DNA from: Azospirillaceae bacterium
GTDB lineage: Bacteria > Pseudomonadota > Alphaproteobacteria > Azospirillales > Azospirillaceae
Direction: 5' to 3'
Length of the DNA stretch: 36,226 nt
Assembly: GCA_028281465.1 (NCBI GenBank)
Contig: JANQJV010000298.1
Location: forward strand, 1 to 36,226
The translations under genes were made by a program, and so were the position numbers. The notes under the pieces were generated by a model. It had not been told where the DNA came from and searched no databases. It worked only from the letters and a program-made list of their open reading frames with translations. Within the stretch, counting starts at the first letter, position 1, and the number at the start of each line of letters is the position of its first letter. Below are positions 29,896-36,226 of this stretch, piece after piece.

Positions 29896-30333
29896 TCACC
29901 AAATGGTTTCGGCCAGATCGCCCTCTTTCTCATGCTGGAATTCGATTTCGGCGATTTCCTGGGAAACGAAATCGCGCATGGAGACGATGCCGACCACGTG
30001 GTCGTTCTGGACCACCGGCAGGTGACGCACATTGCACCCATCCATCAGGATCAGTGCGTCGCGCACCGTGGCCGTGGGCGCAATGGCGGCCGGGTGCGGC
30101 GTCATCACGTCGCCGAGCCGGGTGGCCTTCGGATCCAGGCCTGGGGCGATGACGCGGCACACCAGATCCCGTTCGGTAAAGATTCCAGCCAGATGATCAT
30201 TCTCATCCGACACAATCATGGCGGCGACGTGTTTGGCGGCCATGAGGCGGGCGGCCTGCTGGACCGTGGCTGGCGGCGGTGCGTGGACGACGTCGCGATG
30301 TTTCATCACGTCCTCGATGCGTCTGTGCAGCAT
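29896..30333 (-). CDS. CBS-domain pair protein
   Basis: A 145-residue stand-alone protein with two CBS domains (VHAPPPATVQQAARLMAAKHVAAMIVSDENDHLAGIFTERDLVCRV and the second AAIAPTATVRDALILMDGCNVRHLPVVQNDHVVGIVSMRDFVSQEI). CBS pairs bind adenine nucleotides and usually act as energy or redox sensors. The start at 30333 is well supported by AGGAGG six bases upstream; the longer frame to 30387 has no support. It lies downstream of the EamA gene on the same strand and converges with the membrane protein gene. Confidence 0.9.
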   Translation of the reverse strand: MLHRRIEDVMKHRDVVHAPPPATVQQAARLMAAKHVAAMIVSDENDHLAGIFTERDLVCRVIAPGLDPKATRLGDVMTPHPAAIAPTATVRDALILMDGCNVRHLPVVQNDHVVGIVSMRDFVSQEIAEIEFQHEKEGDLAETIW

Positions 30334-30506
30334 CGGATGCCTCCTGAATGCCAGGAACCTGGGTCTGCTCGGAAGGCAGGCGCACACGGGCCGTGCCGTC
30401 CGGAGACGTCAGGGGTGTCGGGGAGCGACACCAGCTCGGCTATGGCGGTGCAGCGAAACACTCCCTATCCGATATGGGTAAACCGAATGCCGTCCAAGCT
30501 GAGGCA

Positions 30507-31403
30507 TTATGCCGCGGACCCGCGGGTTCGCGGTGGGCGGTCGCGGGCGGCGACCATGACGGTGGCGCCGATCACCATGACACCGCCGATCCACGTGAAG
30601 GCGGACGGGATTTCGCCGAACAGGAAGAACCCGAGCAGCATGGCCCAGACCAGTTTCATGTAATCCACGGGCATGACCACGCTGGTATCGGCCCGGCGTA
30701 AGGCTTCGGTCAGCGAGAGCTGCGCTGCTGTGCCGGTCAGGCCGAGCAGCAGCAGCCAGCCCCACAGTGCCGGTCGGTCCGGCCATGTCCATACAAGAAG
30801 CGCCGGCGGCAGCGACAACACCGACATGAACAGGGCGGTGTAGAAGACGATGGTGGCACCGGTTTCGGTGCGCGACAACTGCTTGATGACGATCAGCGTC
30901 ATGCCCCAGAGCGTGGCCGAGCCCAGGGCGTACAACGCACCGAAATGCATGGATGGTCCCGGCTGTAGAATCACCACGGCGCCGGCGAAACCCAGCAACG
31001 TCGCCGCCCAGAGACGGGGCCCGGCCTGTTCGCGCAGGAACAAGACCGCGAGCAGGGTGGCCATGATGGTGGCGCTGAACTGCAGTGCGTTCACTTGGGC
31101 CATGGGGGCGAGCGACACGGCGGTGAAGAATAGCATCATGGCGCATGTATTGAGCGCTGAGCGCAGCAGCAGGGTAGGCAGGCGCGCGGTGGTCCAGGTG
31201 AGTCCCTGCAGGGCGGTCAACCAGGGCAGCACGGTGAGGAAGCCAAAGGCATTGCGGAAGAAGGTGATTTGCAGCGGGTGGAGGTCGTCGGCCAACACGC
31301 GGATCACACTCTGCATCAATGTGAACGCCAAGGTCGCCGCCAGCATCAGGGCCATGCCGAGCAGAGGTTGGCCGGCATGGGGGGTGATTGCTGGGTGAGT
31401 CAT
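30507..31403 (-). CDS. EamA/DMT-family transporter
   Basis: A 298-residue inner-membrane protein with ten predicted helices in two EamA repeats, the usual drug/metabolite transporter layout. The first repeat holds the segment ITFFRNAFGFL and ends with LREQAGPRLW; the second contains GATIVFYTALFMSVLSLP and SVVMPVDYMKLVWAMLLGFFLFGEIPS, with the characteristic P..Y..L......G...F.E motif. Close relatives are annotated as S-adenosylmethionine or riboflavin transporters, but the substrate cannot be read from the sequence. The start at 31403 gives MTHPAITPHAGQP; the frame extends to 31433. Confidence 0.88.
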   Translation of the reverse strand: MTHPAITPHAGQPLLGMALMLAATLAFTLMQSVIRVLADDLHPLQITFFRNAFGFLTVLPWLTALQGLTWTTARLPTLLLRSALNTCAMMLFFTAVSLAPMAQVNALQFSATIMATLLAVLFLREQAGPRLWAATLLGFAGAVVILQPGPSMHFGALYALGSATLWGMTLIVIKQLSRTETGATIVFYTALFMSVLSLPPALLVWTWPDRPALWGWLLLLGLTGTAAQLSLTEALRRADTSVVMPVDYMKLVWAMLLGFFLFGEIPSAFTWIGGVMVIGATVMVAARDRPPRTRGSAA

Positions 31404-32665
<1,262 letters not shown>

Positions 32666-32672
32666 TGAAGGT

Positions 32673-32698
32673 GGGGCGTGTTACGGTACGCACGCCCC
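32673..32698 (+). terminator. Probable terminator hairpin after ilvC
   Basis: GGGGCGTG (32673-32680) pairs with CACGCCCC (32691-32698) around a ten-base loop, directly behind the ilvC stop. The downstream sequence TCTACTTCC is only partly thymine-rich, so termination may be weak or Rho-assisted. Confidence 0.5.
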
Positions 32699-33248
32699 TC
32701 TACTTCCCCACCCTCGCATGAATCACTGTTCAGGTCAGACCGACCGCTTAACGATTGTTTGCTTCATCCCATGGGCCAGTCGAAACCGTCCAGCAAAAAG
32801 GCCGGTGCCATCACGCGGATGAGGGGCTCGAGCCGGTCGGTGTAGCGAATCTGCGTGTTGTTGATACGGAAGCCGCGCCATTGGCAATCGGAGAACATGC
32901 ATTCTGAAGATGAACGTGGAACGCTATCAACGACGCGGGGCCCTGGAGGGCAAAAGCTCCATGCCGACATCCGATCCGTCGTCGAGACTGGGTGAAGAGG
33001 CGGCATCGGAGCCCTTGAGGCGATCAGATGAACCCTACGGGAAAGCCACCCGAGCCTCCTGCCTGACCAGCCTTGTGAGCAATTGCAAAAAACTATTCCA
33101 GAAGTAAGCAAAGGTGCTACAAAGCTTCTTGGATGCTACCAGCCAAGCTTGGCCATGGCTCCAGCCATAGGTGGCATTCTCTCCTAACTCAGGCCCACCC
33201 GTGTCAAAACGGTGGGGTCCTCTTCATGTGCGCGCTCACGAACGCCTG
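32699..33248. other. Non-coding or decayed stretch at the edge of the low-GC cassette
   Basis: No convincing intact gene is present in about 550 bases. Overlapping opposite-strand frames (32764-33111 minus, 32910-33107 plus) are open but lack recognisable domains and good ribosome-binding sites; one may be a remnant of an insertion element or another lost gene. The last 130 bases hold several imperfect inverted repeats: AAGCTT-containing arms at 33122-33127 and 33143-33150, and CCCACCCGT (33194-33202) with ACGGTGGGG (33209-33217, one bulge). The latter lies 30 bases before the small gene and could be a terminator-like or regulatory hairpin. Confidence 0.35.
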
Positions 33249-33440
33249 ATGACGACAATGAACAACTATGAGATTGACGTTGATGAGCTTTATCCCGCTG
33301 GCGCGATCGAGAAGAAAAAGATACGCGGTGCGTTGCGCTCCCCTATTTTCTTGATGGTCACCTCGAACCAGCCTCATCCAACGCACCTTGCGCGCGCATT
33401 CCTGTCTGGATTCGGAATCTATGTAGGGCGCAATGACTAG
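33249..33440 (+). CDS. Short protein encoded upstream of, and overlapping, an ATP-grasp ligase; possible modified-peptide precursor
   Basis: A 63-residue protein if started at ATG 33249 (60 residues from 33258); the frame is open back to 33171. The N-terminal part is acidic (NNYEIDVDELYPAGA), the middle basic (IEKKKIRGALRS), and the C-terminal part mixed (IFLMVTSNQPHPTHL... then AFLSGFGIYVGRND). It overlaps the ATP-grasp start by eight bases (ATG 33433, stop TAG 33438-33440), so the two are probably translationally coupled. A leader-like charged half followed by a different C-terminal half next to ATP-grasp ligases recalls ribosomal peptide precursors, but no known core motif is visible. It could also be a small partner subunit or a gene fragment. 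Confidence 0.5.
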   Translation: MTTMNNYEIDVDELYPAGAIEKKKIRGALRSPIFLMVTSNQPHPTHLARAFLSGFGIYVGRND

Positions 33441-34458
33441 TGCACGCAACAATTATCTTTTTGGAATCTTGACCTCTCTGTGTTCTGAAATCGATGCGAA
33501 AATTGTTGTTGATCCCGCCTTCAAACGGGCTGGATACATCGAGTTTTTGAATGGGAAGAGGGCATTTTTTAAGGGGACCTCATTTGATATCAACGGACAA
33601 GGTTCCAGCCAAATTGCACGGGACAAGGACTATTCGGCATATTTTTTGGCGATGGAGGGCTTGCAGGTTCCACAAGGCGTTCTTTGTTTTTCTCCGCGAT
33701 TCATAGAAAAAATCAGACGCAAGAACGCCGATGTTGCCAGGGCTCTTGCCTCCTTTTCAGTCGCGATAGAGTTTGCCGAAAAGCACTCGTATCCCGTGAT
33801 CGTTAAGCCTAATGAGGGAGCGGAGGGCGACGGTGTCCGGCGTATCACCGACGTTGATGGCCTGTGTTTGCATCTTGGCAGACTCTTCGAGGAGCACGAA
33901 CGTGTCTTGGTTCAACGCCAATATGACGGATTGGATCATCGGATCGTTGTACTTGATGGTGAGGTTATATCCGCGTACCGTCGGACACCGCTGAGCATTG
34001 TCGGTGATGGTGTTTCCACCGTGGCCGAGCAAATGCACACCGTTGCTGATAACCTGAGACGCTCGGGCGTGACTCCTTCTCTTGTTTTCGACCAGGTATC
34101 GATAAGCGATTTTCTTACCACTTCGGGACGGAGTTTGGACAACGTTCCGGAAGCCGGGGATGTATGGCCGCTTCTACCAAACGCCAACCTGTCGATGGGA
34201 GGTAGAGTGGATGATATGACAGATTGCGTTTGCCAGGAGTTTGGCGACATTGCTACTCGGGCCGCGTCCGCCCTAGGGCTCCGATACGCCGGAGTGGATA
34301 TTCTATGCAGTGGCCTTGACGCGTTTGATCCGTCATATGTCGTGCTGGAGGTGAACTCAGCACCGGGATTGAATAACTTTGGCCGTTCTGGTGAGCGAGA
34401 AAACGACGAAGTGGTTGGACTATACCGCCGCCTGCTTGCGGCTTTGGAGGCCCGGTAG
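33433..34458 (+). CDS. ATP-grasp ligase, cyanophycin-synthetase/GshAB-like type (first of a pair)
   Basis: A 341-residue ATP-grasp enzyme, expected to join a carboxylate to an amine or similar group through an acyl phosphate. Before the ATP-grasp core there is a RAFFKGTSFDINGQGSSQIARDKDYSAYFL segment (43-72), a pre-grasp motif with the conserved Asp-Lys. The core has YPVIVKPNEGAEGDGV (lysine 125, glycine-rich loop), LVQRQYDGLDHRIVVLDGEV, the IVGDGVSTVAE motif (189-199) seen in cyanophycin synthetase and GshAB, and a C-terminal LEVNSAPGLNNF with metal-binding Glu and Asn near 305-307. All catalytic motifs look intact. GC content is visibly lower than in the rest of the window. The next gene starts four bases after its stop. 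Confidence 0.8.
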   Translation: MTSARNNYLFGILTSLCSEIDAKIVVDPAFKRAGYIEFLNGKRAFFKGTSFDINGQGSSQIARDKDYSAYFLAMEGLQVPQGVLCFSPRFIEKIRRKNADVARALASFSVAIEFAEKHSYPVIVKPNEGAEGDGVRRITDVDGLCLHLGRLFEEHERVLVQRQYDGLDHRIVVLDGEVISAYRRTPLSIVGDGVSTVAEQMHTVADNLRRSGVTPSLVFDQVSISDFLTTSGRSLDNVPEAGDVWPLLPNANLSMGGRVDDMTDCVCQEFGDIATRAASALGLRYAGVDILCSGLDAFDPSYVVLEVNSAPGLNNFGRSGERENDEVVGLYRRLLAALEAR

Positions 34459-34462
34459 ACAG

Positions 34463-35413
34463 ATGGTGAAAAATAGAGAACGGGTGTTCGTAAAATGTCT
34501 GGAGCAGTATTGCAGAGCTTTCGAGGTTACCCTTGAATCTTACTCGCATGACTGGATATCTCGTCTCTCGAAGGGAGCGAAGCACCATGTCATCATGGGG
34601 TATGATTTGGGACTAAATTCATCATCATCAGCCCAGGTATGCTCCGATAAAGCAGCGACCTTTACGTTGTTGGAGAGCCAAAATGTGGCAAGTATTCCCC
34701 ATCACTTATTTCTTGAACCATGGAAAATGCAGTTTATCGAGAAAGCTGGCAACTGGGGTGAAATAACCAAGCTACATAACTCTTACGGTGGAAAGACAGT
34801 TGTCAAGCAGAATGACGGAACGGGTGGTAGGGGTGTCTTCCTCGTTGAAGATATCAACGGCTTAGAGAAAGCTGTCACGGAGATTTTTTCACAAGGGAGA
34901 AGTGTGTCAATCTCACCCTTCCTTGAAGTAGAGAGAGAGGCCCGGTTCTGCATTTCCCATGGGCGTGTGGTTCTTTGCTACGAAAAGCTGCGGCCATCTG
35001 TTGTCGGTGATGGGGTTAGCTCTGTCTTGGAACTGGCGCTTGCATCCCAAATTGACCTTCAGGCCACCTGGTTTGAGCGCGTCGATAAGAACTACACTCC
35101 ACCGGAAGGCGAAGAGTGTCTGTTAGATTGGAAACATAATCTTGGTGGTGGTGCCGCCCCAAGACGTTTGAATAGTGATGCCGATGACGTGAAGGATGCC
35201 CGTGATCTTGCTCTGAGCGCCTTTCGCACCCTTGGACTCTGTGCGGCCTCTGTTGACGTGGTGTGTGTTAAGAAATCCTGGATGGTCTTGGAGGTAAACA
35301 CGGGAATAATGATCGAGAACGCTTTTCGGGCAGGCTTGATTTCTCTCGAAGAAGCACAGGAGATATATAACGAACTATTGAGTCATTTGGGTTTCTGTCA
35401 GAACGAACTGTGA
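34463..35413 (+). CDS. ATP-grasp ligase, second of the pair
   Basis: A 316-residue ATP-grasp protein, started at ATG 34463, four bases after the previous stop; the frame extends upstream into the first ligase but that part is not conserved-looking. Motifs: GYDLGLNSSSSAQVCSDKAATFTLLES (47-72), SIPHHLF, KTVVKQNDGTGGRGVFLVED (111-130), EVEREARFCISHGRVVLCYEKLRPSVVGDGVSSVLEL (155-191), and a C-terminal WMVLEVNTGIMIENAF. It shares the GDG.S and LEVN signatures with its neighbour but is clearly a different subfamily, so the pair may add different residues or act on successive intermediates. It is low in GC and uses AT-ending codons freely, as the first ligase does. Confidence 0.78.
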   Translation: MVKNRERVFVKCLEQYCRAFEVTLESYSHDWISRLSKGAKHHVIMGYDLGLNSSSSAQVCSDKAATFTLLESQNVASIPHHLFLEPWKMQFIEKAGNWGEITKLHNSYGGKTVVKQNDGTGGRGVFLVEDINGLEKAVTEIFSQGRSVSISPFLEVEREARFCISHGRVVLCYEKLRPSVVGDGVSSVLELALASQIDLQATWFERVDKNYTPPEGEECLLDWKHNLGGGAAPRRLNSDADDVKDARDLALSAFRTLGLCAASVDVVCVKKSWMVLEVNTGIMIENAFRAGLISLEEAQEIYNELLSHLGFCQNEL

Positions 35414-35476
35414 ATACGGTCGATTTCCCCTTTAGCTGCGCCATGCAAGGGGACTTCGACGCCGCAAACGGCCTGC

Positions 35477-36177
35477 TCACCAGCCGGCGGACCCGCTGTT
35501 CCGGACACGGGCCGGGACCGCGCTCAGCCGCTCCCGCAGCTCCGCGACATCCGTTTGGTGCTGCTGCTCCATATCCGTCCCGTATGGCTCCTGCACCAAG
35601 TTCTCTGATATCAGGCCTACCTTGCGTTCGAGTGCCATTACTCGCTCGTTCATTGCTTCCGTGAACCGATCAATATTCTCCTGCTGTGTTGCTTCTTCGG
35701 CGTCTGCGAAACACTATCGGTATACACCCGGGCCATCTCTTCCAGCCGCTTGAGCGTTCGCATGAGAGCCTCCGCATGAGGTCTGTGATACCGTTCAAAG
35801 TCTCGCATGAGCGCAAAGACGCCATTGAGCAAGGACTGTGACGTCCACCAGGGCTGCAATTGGTAGATGCCTGCGGCGTAATAGTGTGGGAGAATCCTTG
35901 GGGTGTCCCCTCGCTTTTCGAGGTGCTGCATCTGAGATGCCGTTGGTAATTGGCCGCCGTTGCAACGCGGCGACATGCCGATCTTTGATACGGCCAGGAG
36001 GTACCATAAGAGGACAAAGGACGGCGCGCAGACGTTTATCCAACCGCGAACGGTCTATTTGCTGGAAGTATTTTCTACTCTGCTTCCGCAGCTCAACACG
36101 CCGCTGTCGTTTTTGATTTTCTCCTCTATTCGTTCAACAACAGTATCAAACTGCTGCTGTATTCGCTCAGTGAACAT
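35477..36177 (-). pseudogene. Frameshifted remnant of a coiled-coil protein gene
   Basis: Three coding-looking pieces follow each other on this strand in different frames. From 36177, MFTERIQQQFDTVVERIEEKIK runs to a TAG at 36055, with a continuing KRQRRVELRKQSRKYFQQ in another frame. A second piece, ending at 35650, contains HYYAAGIYQLQPWWTSQSLL and LMRTLKRLEEMARVYTDS. A third frame continues with ADAEEATQQENIDRFTEAMN, ERVMALERKVGLISENLVQE and AELRERL to a TGA at 35477. The pieces join sensibly if two or more frameshifts are corrected and would give a helical, coiled-coil protein. I do not recognise the family; a phasin or polymer-granule protein is one guess. It may continue past the window edge. 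Confidence 0.5.
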
Positions 36178-36226
36178 GACGATTGCCCGGTTGCCTGGAC
36201 AACTCCACCAACTCCCGATACCATGA

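Follow-up and report, generated by a model that had tools for sequence, protein, structure and literature searches.

The window analysed here, 36,226 nucleotides long, is the whole of one contig (C247) of a 6.3-Mb, 426-contig alphaproteobacterial assembly. Close to its end lie two intact genes for ATP-grasp ligases, here called A and B (Table 1), of which B starts 4 bases after A, and the contig ends 0.8 kb downstream of the pair. A sequence-only reading of this DNA had described a three-gene cassette made up of a 63-residue protein and two ligases. Its ORF positions, the overlap of the small ORF with A and the four-base gap between the ligases all hold, as does the pair of ligases itself, whereas the 63-residue protein drops out of the cassette because it is the remnant of a 5'-nucleotidase gene.

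Table 1. Features at and around the ligase pair (window coordinates)
Feature	Position	Strand	Remarks
ilvC	31646-32665		PF07991/PF01450; upstream of about 0.8 kb of decayed DNA, then A and B
Decayed insertion-sequence transposase fragment	32753-32899	-	DNA matches in C192 and a Methylobacterium plasmid
Decayed end of another insertion sequence	33086-33226	.	Sharp outer boundary at 33226
C-terminal 5'-nucleotidase remnant (PF06189/PDC-S08 type), frameshifted	33227-33400	+	Holds most of the 63-aa ORF
63-aa ORF	33249-33440		Overlaps A by 8 bases
Ligase A, 341-aa CphA/GshF-like ATP-grasp ligase, intact	33433-34458	+	Pfam, NCBIfam, model
Ligase B, intact 316-aa ATP-grasp ligase; separate subfamily with a wide, scattered occurrence	34463-35413	+	Pfam, NCBIfam, model
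Decayed DNA, no intact gene recognised	35414-36226	.	Reaches the contig end

The GC content of A and B is 50%, compared with 63.6% in positions 1-31645, and third-position GC is 0.53 and 0.50 in the pair compared with 0.79-0.83 in neighbouring genes. Decayed DNA lies on both flanks, with insertion-sequence fragments in the upstream one, so the earlier description of a low-GC unit between decayed flanks was accurate. Because both GC measures fall below those of the neighbouring genes, the A+B module was probably acquired, as had been claimed. The insertion-sequence debris around the module and the absence of a B match (at E<=1e-10) from all 81 relatives of the family point the same way. A phage or plasmid origin was considered and rejected, since B has no match in the plasmid and phage collections at an E-value of 1e-5; viral contigs hold only weak relatives of A. 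A structured RNA search of positions 30000-36226 retrieved no Rfam family, a promoter and terminator search at the pair gave nothing convincing, and no gene for making a substrate, for transport or for resistance was found alongside the pair within the window. On its minus strand, the downstream decayed stretch holds remnants of coding sequence that are frameshifted and coiled-coil-like (35650-35976 and 35477-35653, for example) and belong to no recognised family.

The upstream debris comes from two elements. The DNA of the transposase fragment matches C192, another contig of this genome, at 83% identity within a transposase-like ORF, and is 71% identical to a transposase gene of a Methylobacterium plasmid. 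The second element matches six other stretches of the genome (two on C217, the others on C381, C200, C1 and C137) at 73-89% identity, and the two copies on C217 are inverted and face each other. Because this repeat, common to six other places, stops in each at the base corresponding to 33226 or the one after it, we take 33226 as the end of an insertion sequence.

The 5'-nucleotidase remnant starts right behind that end. Searched in an extended form, from an upstream GTG (33171), the small ORF matched the C-terminal part of the Pfam 5'-nucleotidase family PF06189 (E=0.0014), below the Pfam whole-protein cut-off, as a fragment would be, and the same stretch matched the C-terminal part of PADLOC PDC-S08 (E=7.7e-6). 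A tblastn search of plasmids with this extended form gave six matches, of which four, including the best (E=8e-3), are annotated as 5'-nucleotidases. Frameshift-aware alignment to two plasmid 5'-nucleotidases scored 111 and 85, against 65 and 52 for the best of 60 shuffles, and the homology runs on in other frames, both before 33236 and after about 33340 (HLEPASSNAPCARI). An ORF of at least 63 codons is obtained in 90% of shuffles of the stretch, and no counterpart of the 63-aa ORF was found beside any other A+B pair, elsewhere in its own genome or in the plasmid collection. From the 5'-nucleotidase homology, the insertion-sequence end, the shuffles and the lack of counterparts, the small ORF reads as a pseudogene fragment of a 5'-nucleotidase with no part in the function of A and B, and its overlap with the start codon of A is coincidental. 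A defence system was likewise considered and rejected, as PADLOC has no match for A or B and the PDC-S08 match is to the dead 5'-nucleotidase gene.

These results bear directly on the reading in which the 63-aa ORF encodes the precursor of a graspetide or of another kind of ribosomal peptide. That reading draws on the overlap of the small ORF with A and on the presence of the graspetide ligase PsnB, lower down, in the fold list for A. Graspetide loci sometimes carry two ATP-grasp ligases (PMC8939145), and MvdC/MvdD and the graspetide ligases resemble A and B in being ATP-grasp enzymes that at times occur two per locus. Unlike them, A and B have no precursor peptide, and no graspetide profile appears among the best 25 of the 38 NCBIfam matches of A or among all 20 of B. 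The three-gene order, whose recurrence with a varying small gene the sequence-only reading had proposed to test, was not seen at the other pairs, where the small gene lacks a counterpart. With its supposed precursor a frameshifted remnant missing at all of these, a ribosomal peptide system is the most improbable of the alternatives considered here; the small ORF as RiPP precursor is contradicted by its 5'-nucleotidase origin, and no precursor gene is conserved beside the ligases. The case illustrates that a pseudogene fragment beside a ligase can pass for a peptide precursor.

Both ligases match RimK/ATP-grasp families in Pfam, and alignments agree with the earlier statement that both keep the lysines, the glycine loop and LEVN. 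Structure prediction, which had been proposed as a check, yielded confident ATP-grasp folds for A (AlphaFold pLDDT 86.4, from an alignment of 6 rows) and B (pLDDT 94.2, 39 rows). In fold rankings made with Foldseek and VIA-align, the glutathione-synthetase-like G domain of cyanophycin synthetase CphA1 came first for both (7wae; Z 29.1, rmsd 3.2 and 309 aligned for A; Z 23.7, rmsd 3.8 and 291 aligned for B), with the ATP-grasp half of GshF, a bifunctional glutathione synthetase, close behind; the absence of a protein from these lists was given no evidential weight. Among NCBIfam profiles, A has significant matches to GshF and Ngg that are nonetheless far below the family cut-offs, and the best match of B is to the RimK family (2.1e-13), again below the cut-off. 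The scores of A and B are 134.5 and 37 bits for the cyanophycin synthetase family TIGR02068 (cut-off 850) and 71.4 and 50.3 bits for TIGR00768 (cut-off 143.4), and neither ligase reaches the cut-off of any specific NCBIfam family among the matches listed (for A, the best 25 of 38). A 37-row tree separates B, as a single fully supported group (100/100), from A, CphA, Ngg and the remaining relatives, and the B members of the alphaproteobacterial pairs cluster as a clade (100/99); A as one group is only weakly supported (69/50), with Ngg on a separate branch. The claim of two different ATP-grasp subfamilies is upheld.

The ATP-grasp module of GshF (its glutathione synthetase half) and Ngg (N-acetylglutaminylglutamine synthetase) belong to the same ATP-grasp clade as A and B, but A and B have neither a gamma-glutamylcysteine ligase nor a GNAT domain. 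The genome of the window also encodes an N-acetylglutaminylglutamine synthetase-like GNAT/ATP-grasp protein (L002:1438-3192). A single ATP-grasp ligase related to A occurs elsewhere in the same genome (L003:1128-2135, contig C411) and in another genome, G018 (L009:1411-2427), where a FolC/Mur-ligase-like gene flanks it on either side, an arrangement that resembles a split cyanophycin synthetase.

To compare A and B with their closest structural relative, we mapped the catalytic and aspartate-binding residues of TeCphA1 (PMC9427784) onto them by profile alignment and motif spacing, at roughly 16-25% identity; invariance refers to alignments of 6 rows for A and 39 rows for B. In CphA1, Lys261 binds ATP, Arg309 contacts the acyl phosphate, Asp431 and Glu450 are Mg ligands, and Arg458 contacts the alpha-carboxylate of the incoming aspartate (PMC9427784). 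Lys261 corresponds to K125 in A and K115 in B, Arg309 to R170 and R161, Asp431 to D289 and D265, and Glu450 to E306 and E277, all of them invariant in both alignments, so both A and B should form an acyl phosphate. With the fold, two lysines, the acyl-phosphate arginine and the Mg-binding Asp/Glu in place, A and B have the hallmarks of ATP-grasp carboxylate-amine ligases. The changes fall among the residues that in CphA1 hold the incoming aspartate. Of these, Asn394 is retained in both (N252 in A, N226 in B) and Ser396 in A. Arg323 corresponds to R184 in A but to an invariant lysine, K175, in B, which also lacks the NxxPG motif. Arg458 is replaced by Asn, Ser or Asp across A (N314 in the window) and by Glu in 37 of the 39 B proteins (E285 in the window). 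Because residues that bind amino acids in cyanophycin synthetase are altered in A and B, the substrates and product of A and B are not predictable from it. We infer that A and B both make amide bonds, that cyanophycin synthesis is the role of neither and that neither would use aspartate as CphA does; the nucleophile of B is probably not anchored by an alpha-carboxylate-arginine contact.

The same comparison weighs on the idea that A and B are split enzymes making a cyanophycin-like storage polymer or fragments of one. The closest fold and sequence relatives of the pair are indeed cyanophycin synthetases, and the G domain of CphA1/CphA2 shares its fold with nearly the full length of A and B as well as the ATP, Mg and acyl-phosphate residues. 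Against this, A and B exist as free-standing chains whose alignment to CphA1 spans only about residues 159-486; they have no CphA N domain or Mur-ligase domain, fall far short of the TIGR02068 cut-off and have lost the arginine that binds aspartate. Three alphaproteobacterial cphA loci have an isoaspartyl peptidase and a cyanophycinase, and no such ORF was noticed beside the A+B pairs. We regard a cyanophycin-like product as very unlikely.

The pairing of A with B is real, recurrent and rare. The co-occurrence in other genomes that the sequence-only reading had proposed to look for was found: A directly adjoins B in five of them, in the order A-B with a 4-base overlap of the genes in three alphaproteobacterial metagenome-assembled genomes, or MAGs (L023, L024 and L075), and in the order B-A in a planctomycete (L067) and a Lachnospiraceae MAG (L074). 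The adjacency thus occurs in at least four separate lineages besides that of the window, in both orders. When 27 B-bearing genomes were searched whole, full A (E<1e-100) was present in the five paired ones only, always beside B. Across 385 sampled Alphaproteobacteria, A was found at E<1e-70 in two, the genome of the window and one other (G326, whose paired contig is the same contig as that of L023), both of them paired with B. One of 250 genomes of the family of L074 has A, the paired one, and A is also confined to the paired genomes among 15 genomes of the order of L075 and 26 of the order of L067. The exception is a pair of Rhizobium plasmids with A at 36% identity and no B match. In these plasmids, one of which is a Ti plasmid, two small genes that overlap each other and have no known function come after the gene for A (L007:5944-6993 and L008:5944-6993).

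This distribution helps to judge whether A and B have no joint function and were merely carried together on mobile DNA. That B is mostly single, that A occurs without B on the Rhizobium plasmids and that the window locus bears signs of transfer in its low GC and insertion-sequence debris would all fit such co-carriage, but repeated adjacency in several lineages and both orders does not, nor does the finding that, in genomes searched whole, A was only ever beside B. On balance we consider this explanation improbable.

Gene neighbours vary from pair to pair, so the context fixes no pathway. When the neighbours of the B loci were clustered, no conserved gene emerged that would name one: apart from B and A, the clusters held little more than shadow reading frames of B, ABC-type proteins and a common dehydrogenase family. 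In two related Rhodospirillaceae MAGs, and only there, a PF01841 transglutaminase-like gene lies about 25 bases upstream of A (L024:6184-6948 and L075:6181-6945). This gene is of interest for the alternative of protein or peptide tagging, in which one or both ligases would add residues to a host protein as RimK does, since PF01841 proteases could trim a tag. The RimK family, which resembles A and B in a weak profile match and a similar fold, supplies the best NCBIfam match of B, and RimK, LysX and ArgX rank next after CphA and GshF by fold. Nevertheless, A and B are below the TIGR00768 cut-off and structurally nearer to CphA and GshF than to RimK, and no gene for a target protein is conserved beside the pairs; tagging is therefore unlikely, although we would not set it as low as a storage polymer.

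The reading we prefer, at a probability of roughly 0.5, is that A and B perform a two-step synthesis of a small amide, making successive ATP-dependent amide bonds on one metabolite. Within a single pathway, the two would act on one small soluble metabolite, either one after the other or joined in a heteromeric enzyme, each activating a carboxylate as an acyl phosphate and then joining it to an amine, and the product would be a small peptide-like or amine-capped metabolite. Of the earlier proposal of a new ribosomal or aminoacyl-peptide pathway, the ribosomal half falls with the small ORF, and what we retain is aminoacyl or peptide-like ligation whose substrate would be a small metabolite and not a ribosomal peptide. 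The preferred reading draws on the recurrence of the pair across phyla and on the intact catalytic residues, and the sequential model finds a precedent in PnaC and PnaB, two ATP-grasp ligases that make phosphonoalamide tripeptides in two steps (PMC11867202). The likeness lies in the arrangement only, that of two different ATP-grasp ligases, and the surroundings of A and B showed no recognisable phosphonate genes. Points that speak against the preferred reading are the missing substrate, transport and resistance genes in the window, the many genomes with a solitary B, the Rhizobium plasmids that have A but no B match, and the changing neighbours of the pairs. It is conceivable, though doubtful, that A-B is a previously undescribed module of two diverged CphA/GshF-type ligases that makes a new small amide metabolite, with an amine nucleophile of B unanchored by an alpha-carboxylate, and that has spread by horizontal transfer through Proteobacteria, Planctomycetes and Firmicutes. 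Paired use of ATP-grasp ligases is already known from PnaC/PnaB, and we found no adjacent or tandem ATP-grasp pair of the A+B type in the open-access literature; A+B is a rare two-ligase module.

A scan of genome contigs with the single B sequence found no relatives, a class search gave six homologs of B, and a scan with an alignment returned 80 loci spread over Alphaproteobacteria, Chloroflexi, Clostridia and Planctomycetes, five of them with A beside B. In most B-bearing genomes B stands alone, without A, so it has a role without A as well. This scattered subfamily scores below the curated family cut-offs seen here, and the rare A+B pair offers a way into its chemistry. In one Bradyrhizobium branch of B (L021 in G438, L070, L071, L073, L077 and other loci), about 45 residues are missing, among them the GDG segment and a large part of the loop module that in CphA helps to bind the incoming amino acid.
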